Assembly: GCF_001261915.1 (NCBI RefSeq) | Contig: NZ_CVRT01000117.1 | Coordinates: forward strand, 62,001 to 126,000 | Source: Halorubrum sp. SD626R | Lineage (GTDB): Archaea; Halobacteriota; Halobacteria; Halobacteriales; Haloferacaceae | Direction of reading: 5' to 3' | Length of the DNA stretch: 64,000 bases | In this document: positions 28,934 to 38,768 of the stretch, one piece after another | Layout: the number at the start of each line of letters is the position of its first letter | Numbering within the stretch: the first letter of the stretch is position 1 | Program-made: the position numbers and the translations under genes | Notes under the pieces: model-generated | What the model saw: only the letters and a program-made list of their open reading frames with translations | Told to the model about the DNA's origin: nothing | The model's database searches: none

Positions 28934-30436
28934 CTAAATCCGAGCGAGCATCGCATACAAGAGAACTCCGATCAGAATTGCGAAAAACGGTGCGAGCAAG
29001 ACGAAGATACCGGCCGCCTCCGCCTCGCTCACCTGTGAAGAGCCAAGCATCACAAGCGGAACTCCAGCAAAAAATAATGCTAACACGAGCGCAGCCCCCA
29101 CGACGGCAGGATCTTGATCGGGACGTCCGTCATGTCGGACCGGCAAGCCAAGCGTCTCGATCGCTCGGTCCAGGTCTGTGACTGGGCCAAACTGGACTGT
29201 GTTTGTCGGCGTCGTCTTGACGTTCGAGATGGTTAGTGTGCCGGTGTCAAACAAGCGGTCGGGAATTGCGTTCTTAATTTCAAATCGTGCTCGTGAGTGA
29301 ACAGGTACAGTCCACTGTGGAGCATCAAGCACGGTATCGTACGCGACCAGTGTGTCTCCGCGTCGTTGGTATTCGATGGTGCCGTATCGGAGATAGTAGC
29401 TTCCAACACGGACTCCGAAGATACATGCCAACACGCCGAGGCCAACGCCGCCCCACGCGATATTTCCTGTAACGATAGCGGCTACAACTCCGAGCAGTAG
29501 TAGCGCTACGCCACGGTTAACCACTGTGAGCAGTATCGTGCTGATGCTTCCGAGTAGTACTGACTTCGGGCTAACTGTCACTTGTGCCTGAACCGCCTCA
29601 TCGGGAAGCTCTGGCTCAGGCTGTGGACGGCTGAGTTCACGGTCGTCGCTAAGCCGATCAAACAGCGCTTGCAGGGAGCTTGCAATCGGTCCCGTTGATT
29701 TCCATGACACAGAAAGTGCCGTCTTCACGATCACAAATCCTCCAAGCACAGCCACACCAGCGAACTGGCTCGCTACCAGTCCAATTCCACCGAGTATCAT
29801 CACCGCCATTGTCAGCTGTGTGGGTCGCCGCAGAATCTCGCGAGCGGACACCCTCTCGTATTGTTTGGTTCCAAGATAATCAACGCTGAATTCGATCATA
29901 TGTGCGACCAATAACGCTGAAATGCTCAGACCAACCTCCCACGACAACACTATCGGTGTCTCGATTGTAATCCACGACAGCGCCGTAACTGGGATAATCG
30001 TAGACCCCCAAATCCCGATGATTGAGAGCGCAAACGGTATATTTCGTGGATAAACCGGTGGAAGTGTTGATAATGGACACCAGCCACCTCGCTTGTGTCG
30101 TAGTTCATGGAGAGGTTCTCGCTGTCCAACCACATCAGGCGATCCCCTCTTTGCAAACAACGACTTCATCGCACCGAGAAGGACCGTACTAAACGCTTCA
30201 ATCCAGTAAAGTATCAAGAGTGTCCAAACGTTCCAGTCCCCGAAGAGTACTCCAAGCAGGGGGACCACGTTCGCTGCAATAATCACCAGATCGGTCGTTG
30301 ACTGGTGCGGTACCGTGGAGGGCACACCCCGCATGTCATCATCAATGCGGACGGCTGTAAAAATACTCTCTGTGAACTCTCCTGCAATCCTTCGAAATAT
30401 ATTTTGACTCGGTTGCGGCCGATACTCTGATTCCAC
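28934..30436 (-). CDS. Polytopic membrane protein with DUF6498-like N-terminal half
   Basis: 500 residues. The N-terminal half has about six membrane segments with VIIAANVVPLLGVLFGDWNVWTLLILYWIEA at about 49-80, the signature of DUF6498. After a Pro/Glu-rich linker (about 268-285) come two more helices, a soluble PH-like beta domain (YGTIEYQRRGDTLVAYDTVLDAPQ) and two final helices. The fusion of an unknown membrane domain with a YdbT/PH-like module suggests a scaffold or stress membrane protein, which is an inference. Two small membrane-protein genes flank it on the same strand. Confidence 0.75.
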   Translation of the reverse strand: MESEYRPQPSQNIFRRIAGEFTESIFTAVRIDDDMRGVPSTVPHQSTTDLVIIAANVVPLLGVLFGDWNVWTLLILYWIEAFSTVLLGAMKSLFAKRGSPDVVGQREPLHELRHKRGGWCPLSTLPPVYPRNIPFALSIIGIWGSTIIPVTALSWITIETPIVLSWEVGLSISALLVAHMIEFSVDYLGTKQYERVSAREILRRPTQLTMAVMILGGIGLVASQFAGVAVLGGFVIVKTALSVSWKSTGPIASSLQALFDRLSDDRELSRPQPEPELPDEAVQAQVTVSPKSVLLGSISTILLTVVNRGVALLLLGVVAAIVTGNIAWGGVGLGVLACIFGVRVGSYYLRYGTIEYQRRGDTLVAYDTVLDAPQWTVPVHSRARFEIKNAIPDRLFDTGTLTISNVKTTPTNTVQFGPVTDLDRAIETLGLPVRHDGRPDQDPAVVGAALVLALFFAGVPLVMLGSSQVSEAEAAGIFVLLAPFFAILIGVLLYAMLARI

Positions 30437-35188: not shown

Positions 35189-36760
35189 TTAGCCGTTCCG
35201 GACGGACTCAGATCCTCCGTCACCTGCCAGCTGTGCAACCGATTGAGTCGCCGAAGTGTGCTTTGCCGTGTCACCGTCGCTAATTAGCTGTTGGGTCGCT
35301 GCCGCGATAGCATCGACTTGCTCGGTCTGTGACCGCGTTGCGAGAGCCATTTCGTCGATACCGTCCGCCATCGCTTCTAATTCCCCGACCAGATCATTGA
35401 TCGAACTAGCAATCTGTTCTGCTGTCTCGGCCTGAGTATCAGTCGTGTCGGACACCTCTTCGAAGTTGTGGCTGGTCTCTTGAACTGCCGAAACAATCTC
35501 ATCGAGGTCCGACCCGGTTTGCTCTACAGCAGCGATTCCGGTATCGACTCTTGACATTGCTGTCCGCAGCCCCTCGGCTGCGTCGACGGTCTCTGTTTGA
35601 ACCTCGTCAACTAACGATTCAATCTCATCCACACTTTCCTTTGACTCGACAGCTAGCGACTTGACTTCGTCAGCAACGACGGCGAAACCATCGCCACTCG
35701 TTCCACCACCGTCGGCTCTGGCAGCTTCGATACTTGCGTTCAGTGCAAGGATTCTGGTTTGCTCTGCAATATCGTCGATTAGATCGGTCACGTCAGCAAC
35801 CTGCTTAACACCTTCCTCAACGCGGTCCATCTTCGAGGAAGCGTCCGCCACTGCGCTTTCAATTGCCTCCATCGCTTCGAGTGCTTCCGAGGACGACTCC
35901 CGACCACGTTTGGCCCGCTCTTCGGCTGATTCACTCGCGCGCGTGACTTCTGTCGTCGTTGATGCGACTTCCTCAACAGTGGCACTGAGTTCTCCAACCT
36001 CTCTTGACGTCCGCTCCATGGCCGACTGCTGCTCAGTGACAATCTTGTTCAAACTTGCCGCCTGATCCGCGATATCCTGGGTGGATTCTGAGAGTTCGCA
36101 GATTGGCGCTTCAACGTCGGTTTCAACTTCACTCATCAGTTGCCGCTGCTCTCGTCGTGCGGTCTCTAGTTCGCCGATCATCTCGTTGAACGCCGTCGCG
36201 ATCTCAGCCATCGCGTCGCTCCGGCCAGGTGGATCGTATCGCTGATCGAGGTCACCGTCTGCGGCTGCACCCATCACCTGACTGAACTTCATCGCTTCTG
36301 ACTGAAGGTGTTCGTTAAATTCCGTCGCATCCTGTTTCGTCGACTCGACTTCAGCCTTCGCCCGTTCAACCTCGGATAGTTGCGTCTGGATGTCGGTCCG
36401 CATCTCGTCGATTGCGTCGTACAGCTCCCCAATTTCGTCGGTACGGTCGGTCTCTAAGCTGACATCGAACTCCCCGTCACCGATTCGCTCAGCTCGATTA
36501 CTGAGTTTATTGAGGGCTGTTGCGACGTTCCCACCCAACACAGCGCCAATGACACCAAGATTGACGATGAAGACAATCGCCAACGCAACAATAACTCCAA
36601 TTGCTCGGTTCATCACCAAATCAGGTGGAGCAGCGAGGAGATACAGCGTGAATCCAAGCATGAATACGAGTGTTGTGACTAGTGCGAACCCGACAACCAC
36701 CCCTACTTGTGCGCTGTAACTCTGTCTGAACCGTGCTATAGAACCGTATTCGGTACTCAT
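35189..36760 (-). CDS. Htr-type methyl-accepting transducer, partner of the lysine-less opsin
   Basis: 523 residues. Two membrane helices (about 21-45 and 51-74) are separated by only about six residues, so there is no extracellular ligand domain. They are followed by a HAMP domain (about 75-125), a second HAMP-like segment (about 150-205), and a long coiled-coil signalling domain whose hairpin tip reads IAEQTRILALNASIEAARA (about 340), then methylation-type Glu/Gln-rich helices. This is the architecture of haloarchaeal sensory-rhodopsin transducers (HtrI/HtrII), which read a membrane partner rather than a soluble ligand. Its ATG overlaps the opsin stop by 4 bp. It should feed CheW/CheA; no che genes are in the window. 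Confidence 0.92.
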   Translation of the reverse strand: MSTEYGSIARFRQSYSAQVGVVVGFALVTTLVFMLGFTLYLLAAPPDLVMNRAIGVIVALAIVFIVNLGVIGAVLGGNVATALNKLSNRAERIGDGEFDVSLETDRTDEIGELYDAIDEMRTDIQTQLSEVERAKAEVESTKQDATEFNEHLQSEAMKFSQVMGAAADGDLDQRYDPPGRSDAMAEIATAFNEMIGELETARREQRQLMSEVETDVEAPICELSESTQDIADQAASLNKIVTEQQSAMERTSREVGELSATVEEVASTTTEVTRASESAEERAKRGRESSSEALEAMEAIESAVADASSKMDRVEEGVKQVADVTDLIDDIAEQTRILALNASIEAARADGGGTSGDGFAVVADEVKSLAVESKESVDEIESLVDEVQTETVDAAEGLRTAMSRVDTGIAAVEQTGSDLDEIVSAVQETSHNFEEVSDTTDTQAETAEQIASSINDLVGELEAMADGIDEMALATRSQTEQVDAIAAATQQLISDGDTAKHTSATQSVAQLAGDGGSESVRNG

Positions 36761-37515
36761 TCTTGTACCCCCGCTTGTGACCCCGCGTGGTCGGTCATCT
36801 GTTCCGTATTCTTCAGATCGGTTCCTTCAGTACCAGATCCGGGTATCTGATCAAACACAACCGAGTTGCTGTACACGATACTGATGAAGGCACCAACGAG
36901 AAGTAGTTCTACGTACATGATTGTCACCCAATCGGTGAACACTGTTGTCAGTCCGAGTGTGCTGGGGTGAACGACGACTGTCGCGACCTGACCGAACCAC
37001 CCGAGTAGCATGATATGCTTGAGCTTGTTGAGTACGGTCAGTCGACGCTCTGACTGCTTTTTTGCCGTCGCTACCACCGGCCCGTACAGAATGTACCCCC
37101 CGGCAACCAGCAGCAACGGACTAATGAGTACGACGTGCTGCGGGACAAACGCCGTTTTCCATGCTAGGAATGTCATCCACAACTGGCCCGCTATCGTTAC
37201 AAACAGCGCTAATGAAAGCTGCCGCTTGGCGCCTGAGATAGCCGAAACAACGTAGACAATCCCCGCCCACATGAGAGTGTACCCAATAAACCGTGAGAGT
37301 TCCATCAACAACAGCGGGAGTCCGGTCTGTTCGAAGAAGAACTGAATCGTTGTCATGCCGACGTATGCGAGAAACATCCCTGCCGCAGAGAGCGTCGTTG
37401 CCGTACCGTACCGACGGACAGCCTTATCGAGCTGACGCTCCGCTCGGAACGACAAAACGGTCAGCACCGCTAGTATACACATTGCGATCGCCGAAAAGTA
37501 TACTAGCTGGACCAT
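36757..37515 (-). CDS. Type 1 opsin homologue lacking the retinal-binding lysine
   Basis: 252 residues with seven membrane helices. It aligns by eye with sensory rhodopsin II: RRYGTATTLSAAG and AYVGM (helix B); SRFIGYTLMWAGIVYVVSAISG (helix C, Arg75 kept, but the counterion Asp replaced by Gly78); GGYILYGPVVATAKKQSERR (helix E); LLGWFGQVATVVVHP (helix F, Trp173 kept); and TDWVTIMYVELLLVGAF (helix G). In helix G the Schiff-base Lys position is Val207, Glu203 replaces the conserved Asp, and no other Lys lies in the helix. Covalent retinal binding in the usual place is therefore impossible. It overlaps and precedes an Htr gene. A tail of 30 polar residues follows helix G. Function: probably a non-photochemical or differently liganded receptor (inference). 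Confidence 0.85.
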   Translation of the reverse strand: MVQLVYFSAIAMCILAVLTVLSFRAERQLDKAVRRYGTATTLSAAGMFLAYVGMTTIQFFFEQTGLPLLLMELSRFIGYTLMWAGIVYVVSAISGAKRQLSLALFVTIAGQLWMTFLAWKTAFVPQHVVLISPLLLVAGGYILYGPVVATAKKQSERRLTVLNKLKHIMLLGWFGQVATVVVHPSTLGLTTVFTDWVTIMYVELLLVGAFISIVYSNSVVFDQIPGSGTEGTDLKNTEQMTDHAGSQAGVQE

Positions 37516-37769
37516 TAGTTTTGCCCGATATTATAGGCCAAGTCGCCCATGAAGTTTGAGTCTGAGTTGTTTTCAATCGCGTTAATCCGTGGTAATCTAC
37601 TATTTTGACCCATTTTATGACGTTTGCAATAATTCGGATATTATCGGTATACTTGATACTCTTGGCTCAGTTATCGAGTTTGATATATATACTACCGTTC
37701 TGACTACCAACCTATTATAACCAATCTTAGGGACTTTCTAGATCTGAACAGGTGAATCACTACTAACGG
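37516..37769. other. AT-rich control region upstream of the opsin-transducer operon
   Basis: About 250 bases, the most AT-rich in the window, with several TATA-like runs. No gene. It must hold the opsin-htr promoter, and it borders the insertion-sequence remnant on its right. Confidence 0.5.
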
Positions 37770-37867
37770 GTTTGTCTGAACACGGTGTCTCAGCTCACTC
37801 GATTGAAGATAGTCTCAACACACACGAAATGAGACACCGTGCTGTTACCCGTAGTGTTCAGATAAGC
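37770..37867. mobile_element. Nested inverted repeats at the IS6-type element end
   Basis: CACGGTGTCTCA (37781-37792) and TGAGACACCGTG (37830-37841) are perfect 12-bp inverse complements. GTTTGTCTGAACAC (37770-37783), directly joined to the first, is matched 12 of 14 by GTGTTCAGATAAGC (37854-37867). The right arms are split by 12 bases. It lies at the 3' end of the transposase remnant and marks one or two overlapping element ends. Confidence 0.55.
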
Positions 37868-38315
37868 TGATTCCATGCGAAAGCGAATGGTCTGAGCCAC
37901 TCGTCAGCAGTTTCTGCTTTGGCGTTGCTAAAACAGTTTGAGAAACTGGTAGTTCTGCGTTTATCTCACGAAAGACACGTTCGACGCTGTTCCGATTTCC
38001 ATGTCGTTCGTACCTGAAGTCGAGGTCATATCTGCGACAGGCTCGCTGAAGTGAAGCTGATCCATCTACGAGGACTGTTGCGTCATCTATGTCGTGTTTG
38101 CCACGGAGATCAGCGAAAAACCGATCTGCGACAGCGTTATTCGTCGCTGGCTCAAACTGTGTATGGAGCAGATCGTTCGTTTCCGGATCGACAGCAGCGT
38201 ACAGCCAATATTGTTCATCGTCAAGCCGAGTCACAGTCTCATCAACCGCAACGTGATTCGCCCTCCGACCGGGTTCCGGCTGTAGATCGGCTTTGTGAAC
38301 CCAGTTGTGAACGCT
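37858..38315 (-). pseudogene. IS6-type transposase, 5' truncated and frameshifted
   Basis: The minus strand encodes SVHNWVHKADLQP, HVAVDETVTRLDDEQYWLYAAVDPETNDLL, VLVDGSASLQRACRR and YERHGNRNSVERVFREI, the DDE core of haloarchaeal IS6-family transposases. After FREI one base is missing in an A run near 37968. In the shifted frame the normal end RRTTSFSNCFSNAKAETADE ... FAFAWNQLI follows, with TGA at 37858-37860. The first ~80 codons are absent: the sequence changes abruptly at about 38315 to an unrelated gene fragment. Not active. Confidence 0.85.
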
Positions 38316-38768
38316 ACATGTTCGCCCGATTGACTTCGAGATCATCGAATGCGTCTTTGAGTTGGTCGAACGGCGGGCTAACCTCGACGAGTTCGTCGTC
38401 GGCCTCATCCAACAGCGTCATCACGTCGGAATCCTCGTTGAGCGTCTCGCCCTCATCGGGCTCGTAGTGCTCGTGAACCTCTTCACGACCGAGAATCTGC
38501 GCACGGCGCTCTGCCTCGGCTTTCTTTTCTGTGGTCGCCGTTTCGAGCCGCGCGACGCCCAATCATGAGATCTCCACGCCGTCCCCAGCGAGTCCGCGCT
38601 CCATCAGCTGCTAATCCGGAGTGGCGTAGGTCCATCCGGAGCCGACCTCCTCCGCGGTGCGGGCGAGCTAAGGTCGTATTCATAATTCCAATCCGCCTTT
38701 GTCTCCCAGTTCGAAACGACCACCCCGCCGCTGACGTTCGGCACCCAGGACGCGAACTCGGTGTTCAT
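38314..38768 (-). pseudogene. Degraded accessory gene cut by the IS remnant
   Basis: From an ATG at 38768 the frame reads MNTEFASWVPNVSGGVVVSN and NWNYEYDL-like sequence, shifts, continues ARTAEEVGSGWTYATPD, passes stops (TAG, then TGA near 38565), and resumes as LGVARLETATTEKKAEAERR, HYEPDEGETLNEDSD and PPFDQLKDAFDDLEVNRANM. One frameshift and two stops lie within about 150 codons, and the 3' end is lost at the transposase junction. I do not recognise the product; the charged helical sequence resembles haloarchaeal plasmid proteins. Confidence 0.6.

Follow-up and report, generated by a model that had tools for sequence, protein, structure and literature searches.

The window analysed here, 64 kb of contig C117 in a 3.25-Mb draft genome, carries on its minus strand an overlapping pair of genes for an opsin-like protein and an Htr transducer. 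A sequence-only reading of the same DNA had described both reading frames and their 4-bp overlap, and an ORF check recovered them at the same positions. The features of the locus are as follows.

36757-37515, minus strand: lysine-less type 1 opsin-related protein (ORP) of group B, 'YVE' subclade, 252 aa, seven TM helices (from ORF, profile, tree and model)
35189-36760, minus strand: Htr transducer, chimeric, 523 aa (from ORF, domains and trees)
36757-36760, minus strand: 4-bp ATGA overlap of the opsin stop and the htr start (from ORF coordinates)
37282-37284, minus strand: Gly78 codon, at the counterion Asp position, NpSRII D75 / BR D85 (from the NpSRII alignment)
36913-36915, minus strand: Tyr201 codon, equivalent to NpSRII Y199 (from the NpSRII alignment)
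36907-36909, minus strand: Glu203 codon, at the NpSRII D201 / BR D212 position (from the NpSRII alignment)
36895-36897, minus strand: Val207 codon, at the retinal-lysine position, NpSRII K205 / BR K216 (from the NpSRII alignment)
36173-36760, minus strand: Htr front module, residues ~1-196, with TM1, TM2, HAMP1 and HAMP2, apparently of the group B ORP transducer type
35264-36172, minus strand: Htr output module, residues ~197-499, a HemAT-type MCP signalling domain
37516-37700, minus strand: region upstream of the opsin, with ~40 bp at 37596-37634 conserved with a second locus, L003
37845-38408, minus strand: remnant of an IS240/IS6-type DDE transposase, located upstream of the opsin and htr genes

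Degraded reading frames of the IS240/IS6-type transposase extend over 37845-38562, just upstream of the pair, and the genes downstream encode an SDR, UvdE, MsrA and an FAD protein; elsewhere in the window, at 28937-30436, lies the gene for a 500-aa DUF6498 membrane protein. The ~40 bp upstream of the opsin, which are nearly the sole non-coding stretch that the locus has in common with L003, are probably the promoter region; apart from them and a 23-bp match downstream, the flanks of the two loci are unshared, and a TnpB-like frame lies upstream of the pair in L003. No che or archaellum genes were found among the scanned neighbours of the window pair. The host genome contains CheW and a 790-aa CheA-like frame with a split CheW match, two Brp/Blh-type genes of retinal synthesis, and three canonical opsins.

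Taken by itself, the opsin sequence had no match to Pfam PF01036, none useful in NCBIfam and none among PDB sequences, and a Saf_2TM match (E=0.04) was weak and was taken as chance. By contrast with the single sequence, a profile built from 14 close relatives that also lack the lysine, and from no canonical opsin, matched NpSRII over its full length (E=8e-15). An AlphaFold2 model of the 252-aa protein (pLDDT 88) predicts seven helices, its top Foldseek matches are SRII and BR structures and not non-opsin seven-helix families, and VIA-align superposes ~210 of its residues on rhodopsins with Z ~26 and an rmsd of ~2 A. As judged by profile and model, the protein has a type 1 opsin fold, and the relationship to sensory rhodopsins that had been claimed for it holds.

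Alignment with NpSRII pairs R72 with Arg75, D75 with Gly78, W76 with Tyr79, V108 with Gln111, F127 with Leu130, W171 with Trp173, Y174 with Gln176, W178 with Val180, Y199 with Tyr201, D201 with Glu203 and K205 with Val207, in agreement with the earlier calls for Arg75, Trp173, Val207, Gly78 and Glu203. None of the protein's lysines aligns at the retinal-lysine position, which is occupied by Lys in 18/18 canonical sequences, by Val207 in the window opsin and by Leu in L003. All 18 sampled members of the subclade share Gly78, Tyr79, Trp83, Thr115, Trp173, Val177, Tyr201 and Glu203; the Gly78 site is Gly throughout the sampled group B sequences as well, and Tyr201 is invariant in every ORP sampled. 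Gly78 and Glu203 are therefore shared features of the subclade and not peculiarities of the window gene. At the W178 and Y174 sites the window opsin and L003 have Val180 and Gln176, whereas 18/18 subclade relatives have Gly and Leu, the substitutions reported for group B ORPs (PMC4915679), which describe that group but do not define it; Val180 and Gln176 mark the window/L003 lineage as divergent within group B. Changes fixed in this lineage were not enriched in the retinal pocket (4/13 pocket versus 12/31 other conserved positions, p=0.74).

Lysine-less opsins had been reported before, as the sequence-only reading stated. Becker et al. 2016 (PMC4915679) described 48 haloarchaeal ORPs without K216, assigned those with Arg at this position to group A and those with a hydrophobic residue to group B, found many of them adjoining HAMP/MCP transducers, obtained no pigment when two were expressed with retinal, and proposed a non-light taxis role through the MCP partners. 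The opsin class and its MCP linkage are already known, and the chimeric transducer is what is new. We searched 392 genomes of the order with a profile and extracted 100 regions, which gave a total of 148 opsin-like ORFs; the K216 position is held by Lys in 18 of them, Arg in 72, Leu in 34, Val in 8, His in 6, Phe in 5 and other residues in 5. A same-strand Htr lies within ~350 bp of 103 of the 130 lysine-less opsins sampled.

In the larger tree, non-Lys opsins separate from canonical ones; in a smaller, more careful tree with midpoint rooting the canonical sequences fall between the ORP groups, so monophyly of all ORPs is not claimed from it. The window opsin and L003 nest inside group B with 100/100 support, and AU tests reject trees that leave these two out of group B (p=1.3e-4) or that unite them with group A (p=0.008). 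All other members of the subclade come from one other family, f7, which is probably Natrialbaceae; the closest protein matches of the window opsin (35-38% identity) are in f7 genomes, whereas group A genes of its own genus reach at most 30%. Among 170 genomes of the host's family, the lineage was found only in the host genome and in the MAG Haloferacaceae archaeon LUM.70, and no relatives were found in plasmids or viral contigs. The simplest reading of this distribution is that the opsin lineage was transferred from a Natrialbaceae-like source.

The survey also touched other ORPs. The host genome contains a group A ORP (Arg) with an overlapping htr upstream (L002/L164, G000:C65), such that two unrelated ORP-Htr pairs and three canonical opsins coexist there. 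Arg-type ORPs at L004, L042, L055-L064 and L066-L070 form branches separate from group A and retain Asp/Glu at the counterion site as well as Tyr174; Arg at the lysine position may have arisen twice. A group A ORP in G037 (L009, 1459-2201, minus strand) is split over two frames, as a pseudogene or through sequencing error.

The window Htr carries HAMP and MCPsignal domains, with HAMP at residues 75-125, and its front is homologous to the NpHtrII chain of SRII/HtrII crystal structures (E=8e-21). Helices are predicted at 5-42 and 46-94 by a low-confidence model (pLDDT 73, pTM 0.33), of which the helix layout alone was used; together with the NpHtrII homology they fit the two-TM, nearly loop-less transducer described earlier. 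In the SRII:HtrII complex, Y199 of the opsin contacts N74 of the transducer. Asn67 of the window Htr corresponds to NpHtrII N74, and this interface pair is kept, with Tyr201 in the opsin and Asn67 in the Htr; Y199 has likewise been discussed as the transducer-contact residue of the opsin (PMC4915679). The front module aligns with group B Htrs pairwise and ungapped at ~50% identity, with scores of up to 307, versus 232 or less with group A and canonical Htrs. The front-module tree places it with group B at 81/90 support, which is weak, and AU tests gave p=0.13 for union with group A and p=0.21 for union with canonical Htrs. Residues 1 to ~196 appear to be of the opsin-transducer type, with group B as the best assignment. 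Hydropathy had suggested that TM1 and TM2 lie closer together than they do in group B Htrs, an estimate that was dropped because the pairwise alignment to these Htrs is ungapped.

The signalling domain has a different affinity. When searched in 97 genomes, its best matches were receptors at 43-46% identity, compared with 37% for the best opsin Htr listed, and five of five examined top-matching receptors contain a Protoglobin domain and hence are HemATs. The HemATs are the globin-coupled aerotaxis (oxygen-sensor) transducers; Pfam found no Protoglobin domain (PF11563) in the window Htr. The pairwise match to group B Htrs includes HAMP2 and ends at residue ~196, and similarity to HemATs (three compared) begins at 197. 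In a tree that includes HemATs, the window and L003 signalling domains nest among them (45-row clade 100/99, 4-row clade 98/95), and their stem shortens from 1.84 to 0.82. Union with group B Htrs was rejected by the AU test (p=1.5e-4; p=0.067 before HemATs were added), while union with all opsin Htrs gave p=0.22. In only 2/65 opsin-paired Htrs, those of the window and L003, does the match to a HemAT outscore the matches to all other opsin Htrs, with margins of 80 and 126 points; the other 63 all favour Htrs over HemAT, by a median of 520 points.

Opsin and Htr distances across the 65 pairs, computed with species relatedness still in, correlate at r=0.82 for the TM1-HAMP1 part and 0.86 for the signalling part, values that 0/2000 permutations reach, and such co-evolution supports a working receptor complex over decay. 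For single pairs the signalling part gives a median of 0.92, and the window (-0.44) and L003 (-0.18) are the sole negatives; the TM1-HAMP1 part of the window Htr is normal at 0.83. The window transducer is a chimera of an opsin-Htr front and a HemAT-type signalling domain. A swap of the whole partner, considered when the Htr tree fell outside group B, was replaced by this module swap because the front part is group B-like. The HemAT-type domain and the subclade-wide Gly78 and Glu203 were the points that the sequence-only reading had missed.

L003, in LUM.70, has the same opsin-first order; its opsin is 78% identical to that of the window and its downstream Htr 82%, and the two genes overlap by 1 bp, versus 4 bp in the window. 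Nei-Gojobori dN/dS between the loci is 0.15 for the opsin and 0.09 for the Htr, so that both genes are under purifying selection. A same-order pair of 78-82% identity in a second genome, with low dN/dS, is more than chance, and together with the 103 pairings in the survey it bears out the conserved opsin-Htr association that the earlier reading had raised.

That reading had also called the opsin-first order opposite to the usual one; the order is indeed uncommon, but it is not unique, occurring as well in the canonical SRM-HtrM pair (PMC6450946), at the canonical SR locus of the host genome (L203) and in the His-type ORP clade (L110, L117, L127, L129). The transducers of this His-at-K216 clade have ~220-240 residues between their TM helices, a large extracellular domain. 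At L073, L078, L083 and L088, all Natrialbaceae-type, two group B ORPs flank one Htr in ORP-htr-ORP arrays, which suggest that one transducer is shared by two ORPs and provide a way for an ORP to end up ahead of an htr. At these four loci and at L082, L092, L097 and L101, a HemAT gene lies on the opposite strand within ~120-220 bp. The HemATs beside these eight Natrialbaceae-type loci are not the closest to the window's signalling domain and therefore illustrate only a possible fusion route.

The computed opsin fold, the missing lysine, the ORP clade, the chimera, its conservation and the purifying selection are probably best explained, in our view, by a two-protein, retinal-free taxis receptor with a chimera-borne HemAT output and a transferred ORP-Htr origin. 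Such a receptor would entail a physical complex of the two proteins, a window opsin that holds no retinal, a stimulus other than light, output to CheA, and transfer in the direction given above. The input would be the retinal-free group B ORP, which in the membrane would sense not light but a ligand, an ion or the state of the membrane; a literature search of partial coverage found no stimulus or ligand for any ORP. Movement of helices F and G would be passed sideways to TM2 of the Htr through an SRII:HtrII-type interface (Tyr201 to Asn67), and the signal would run through two HAMP domains into the HemAT-derived signalling domain, whose targets would be the CheA/CheW array and the archaellum. 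As to origin, a Natrialbaceae-type group B ORP-Htr system may have been transferred into the Halorubrum-like family, where its transducer would have gained a HemAT output through an in-frame fusion at the HAMP2/signalling junction and the gene order would have become opsin-first. Purifying selection, the kept Tyr201 and Asn67, the CheW and CheA-like genes, the Val or Leu at the lysine position and the V, Q, L and Y that stand in place of the NpSRII pocket residues W178, Y174, F127 and W76, weighed together, favour the retinal-free receptor. Counting against it are the weak front-module tree, the long stem of the lineage, the lack of che or archaellum genes among the scanned neighbours, and the ability of the host to make retinal, which means that a chromophore is available.

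Canonical opsin-transducer pairs stabilise each other, and HtrM stabilises SRM (PMC6450946). The opsin might accordingly be a non-sensing structural subunit that keeps the Htr folded and dimeric, leaving the HemAT module or the HAMPs to sense a cytoplasmic or membrane-energy signal. The HemAT part is without its globin, so the input must lie elsewhere, as this alternative would have it. We nevertheless consider it unlikely, because the invariant subclade core (R75, G78, Y79, W83, T115, W173, Y201, E203), along with a dN/dS of 0.15, suggests more than a scaffold.

Less likely still is a persisting photoreceptor, in which retinal or another carotenoid-derived chromophore is bound non-covalently and light is signalled to the Htr. 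The opsin does retain Trp173, Arg75 and the acidic residue Glu203, in a host that makes retinal and has three canonical opsins; the lysine, however, is replaced by Val or Leu, the NpSRII ring-cavity and polyene contacts W178, Y174, F127 and V108 have become V, Q, L and Q, and two related ORPs formed no pigment with retinal (PMC4915679). It is about equally improbable that there is no chimera, and that a fast-evolving group B or base-Htr signalling domain was pulled to HemAT by long branches. The window lineage does sit on a long stem in all trees, and union with all opsin Htrs survives the AU test, but long branches alone would not raise identity to HemAT above that to the best opsin Htr listed, and the sharp breakpoint at residue 197, the 98/95 nesting with its shortened stem, the rejection of group B and the restriction of the pattern to two Htrs all argue against such attraction. 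That the pair is recently acquired, non-functional cargo beside insertion sequences, as the IS240 remnant, the TnpB-like frame, the unshared flanks and the presence of the lineage in two genomes only might suggest, is very improbable for genes that are intact in two divergent genomes at dN/dS of 0.15 and 0.09 with their overlap conserved.

Returning to the retinal-free receptor, its parts are individually familiar. With group B ORPs the window opsin shares the type 1 fold, a hydrophobic residue at K216, Gly in place of the counterion Asp, the Arg72, Tyr51 and Tyr199 equivalents and a linked HAMP/MCP transducer, and it is nested in their clade; they differ from it in having Gly/Leu in place of Val180/Gln176, and from the pair in that the latter is opsin-first, lies outside the family of its closest relatives and has a HemAT-type output. 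The fold, the two-TM and HAMP front end and the Tyr199-Asn74 contact residues are those of SRII:HtrII (1H2S, 4GYC, 5JJE), but the Schiff-base Lys and the counterion Asp are missing, the pocket is rebuilt and the signalling domain is not of HtrII lineage. The MCP signalling domain from Htr residue 197 onward, including its LMxEVE...PI start segment, is that of HemATs, which are soluble and heme-based, whereas the window Htr is without protoglobin, membrane-anchored and opsin-paired. SRM:HtrM of Haloarcula marismortui similarly has the opsin first, the transducer immediately downstream and an unusual output end, yet SRM binds retinal and is photoactive, and HtrM is without any signalling domain (PMC6450946). 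No ORP-HemAT chimera was found in a literature search of partial coverage.

The window locus amounts to a natural domain-swap experiment, in which the front module stayed with the opsin and the output was exchanged; this suggests that partner specificity resides in TM-HAMP1-HAMP2. The near-exact junction could be used to build reporters, with an ORP front on a HemAT or HtrII output whose behaviour is known, for seeking the stimulus of ORPs. More tentatively, a retinal-free opsin may have taken the place of heme-globin as input to an aerotaxis transducer, with a stimulus that is not light and is perhaps redox- or energy-related. If this is true, recombination at the HAMP2/signalling junction would be a means by which opsin-fold inputs and MCP outputs are exchanged.
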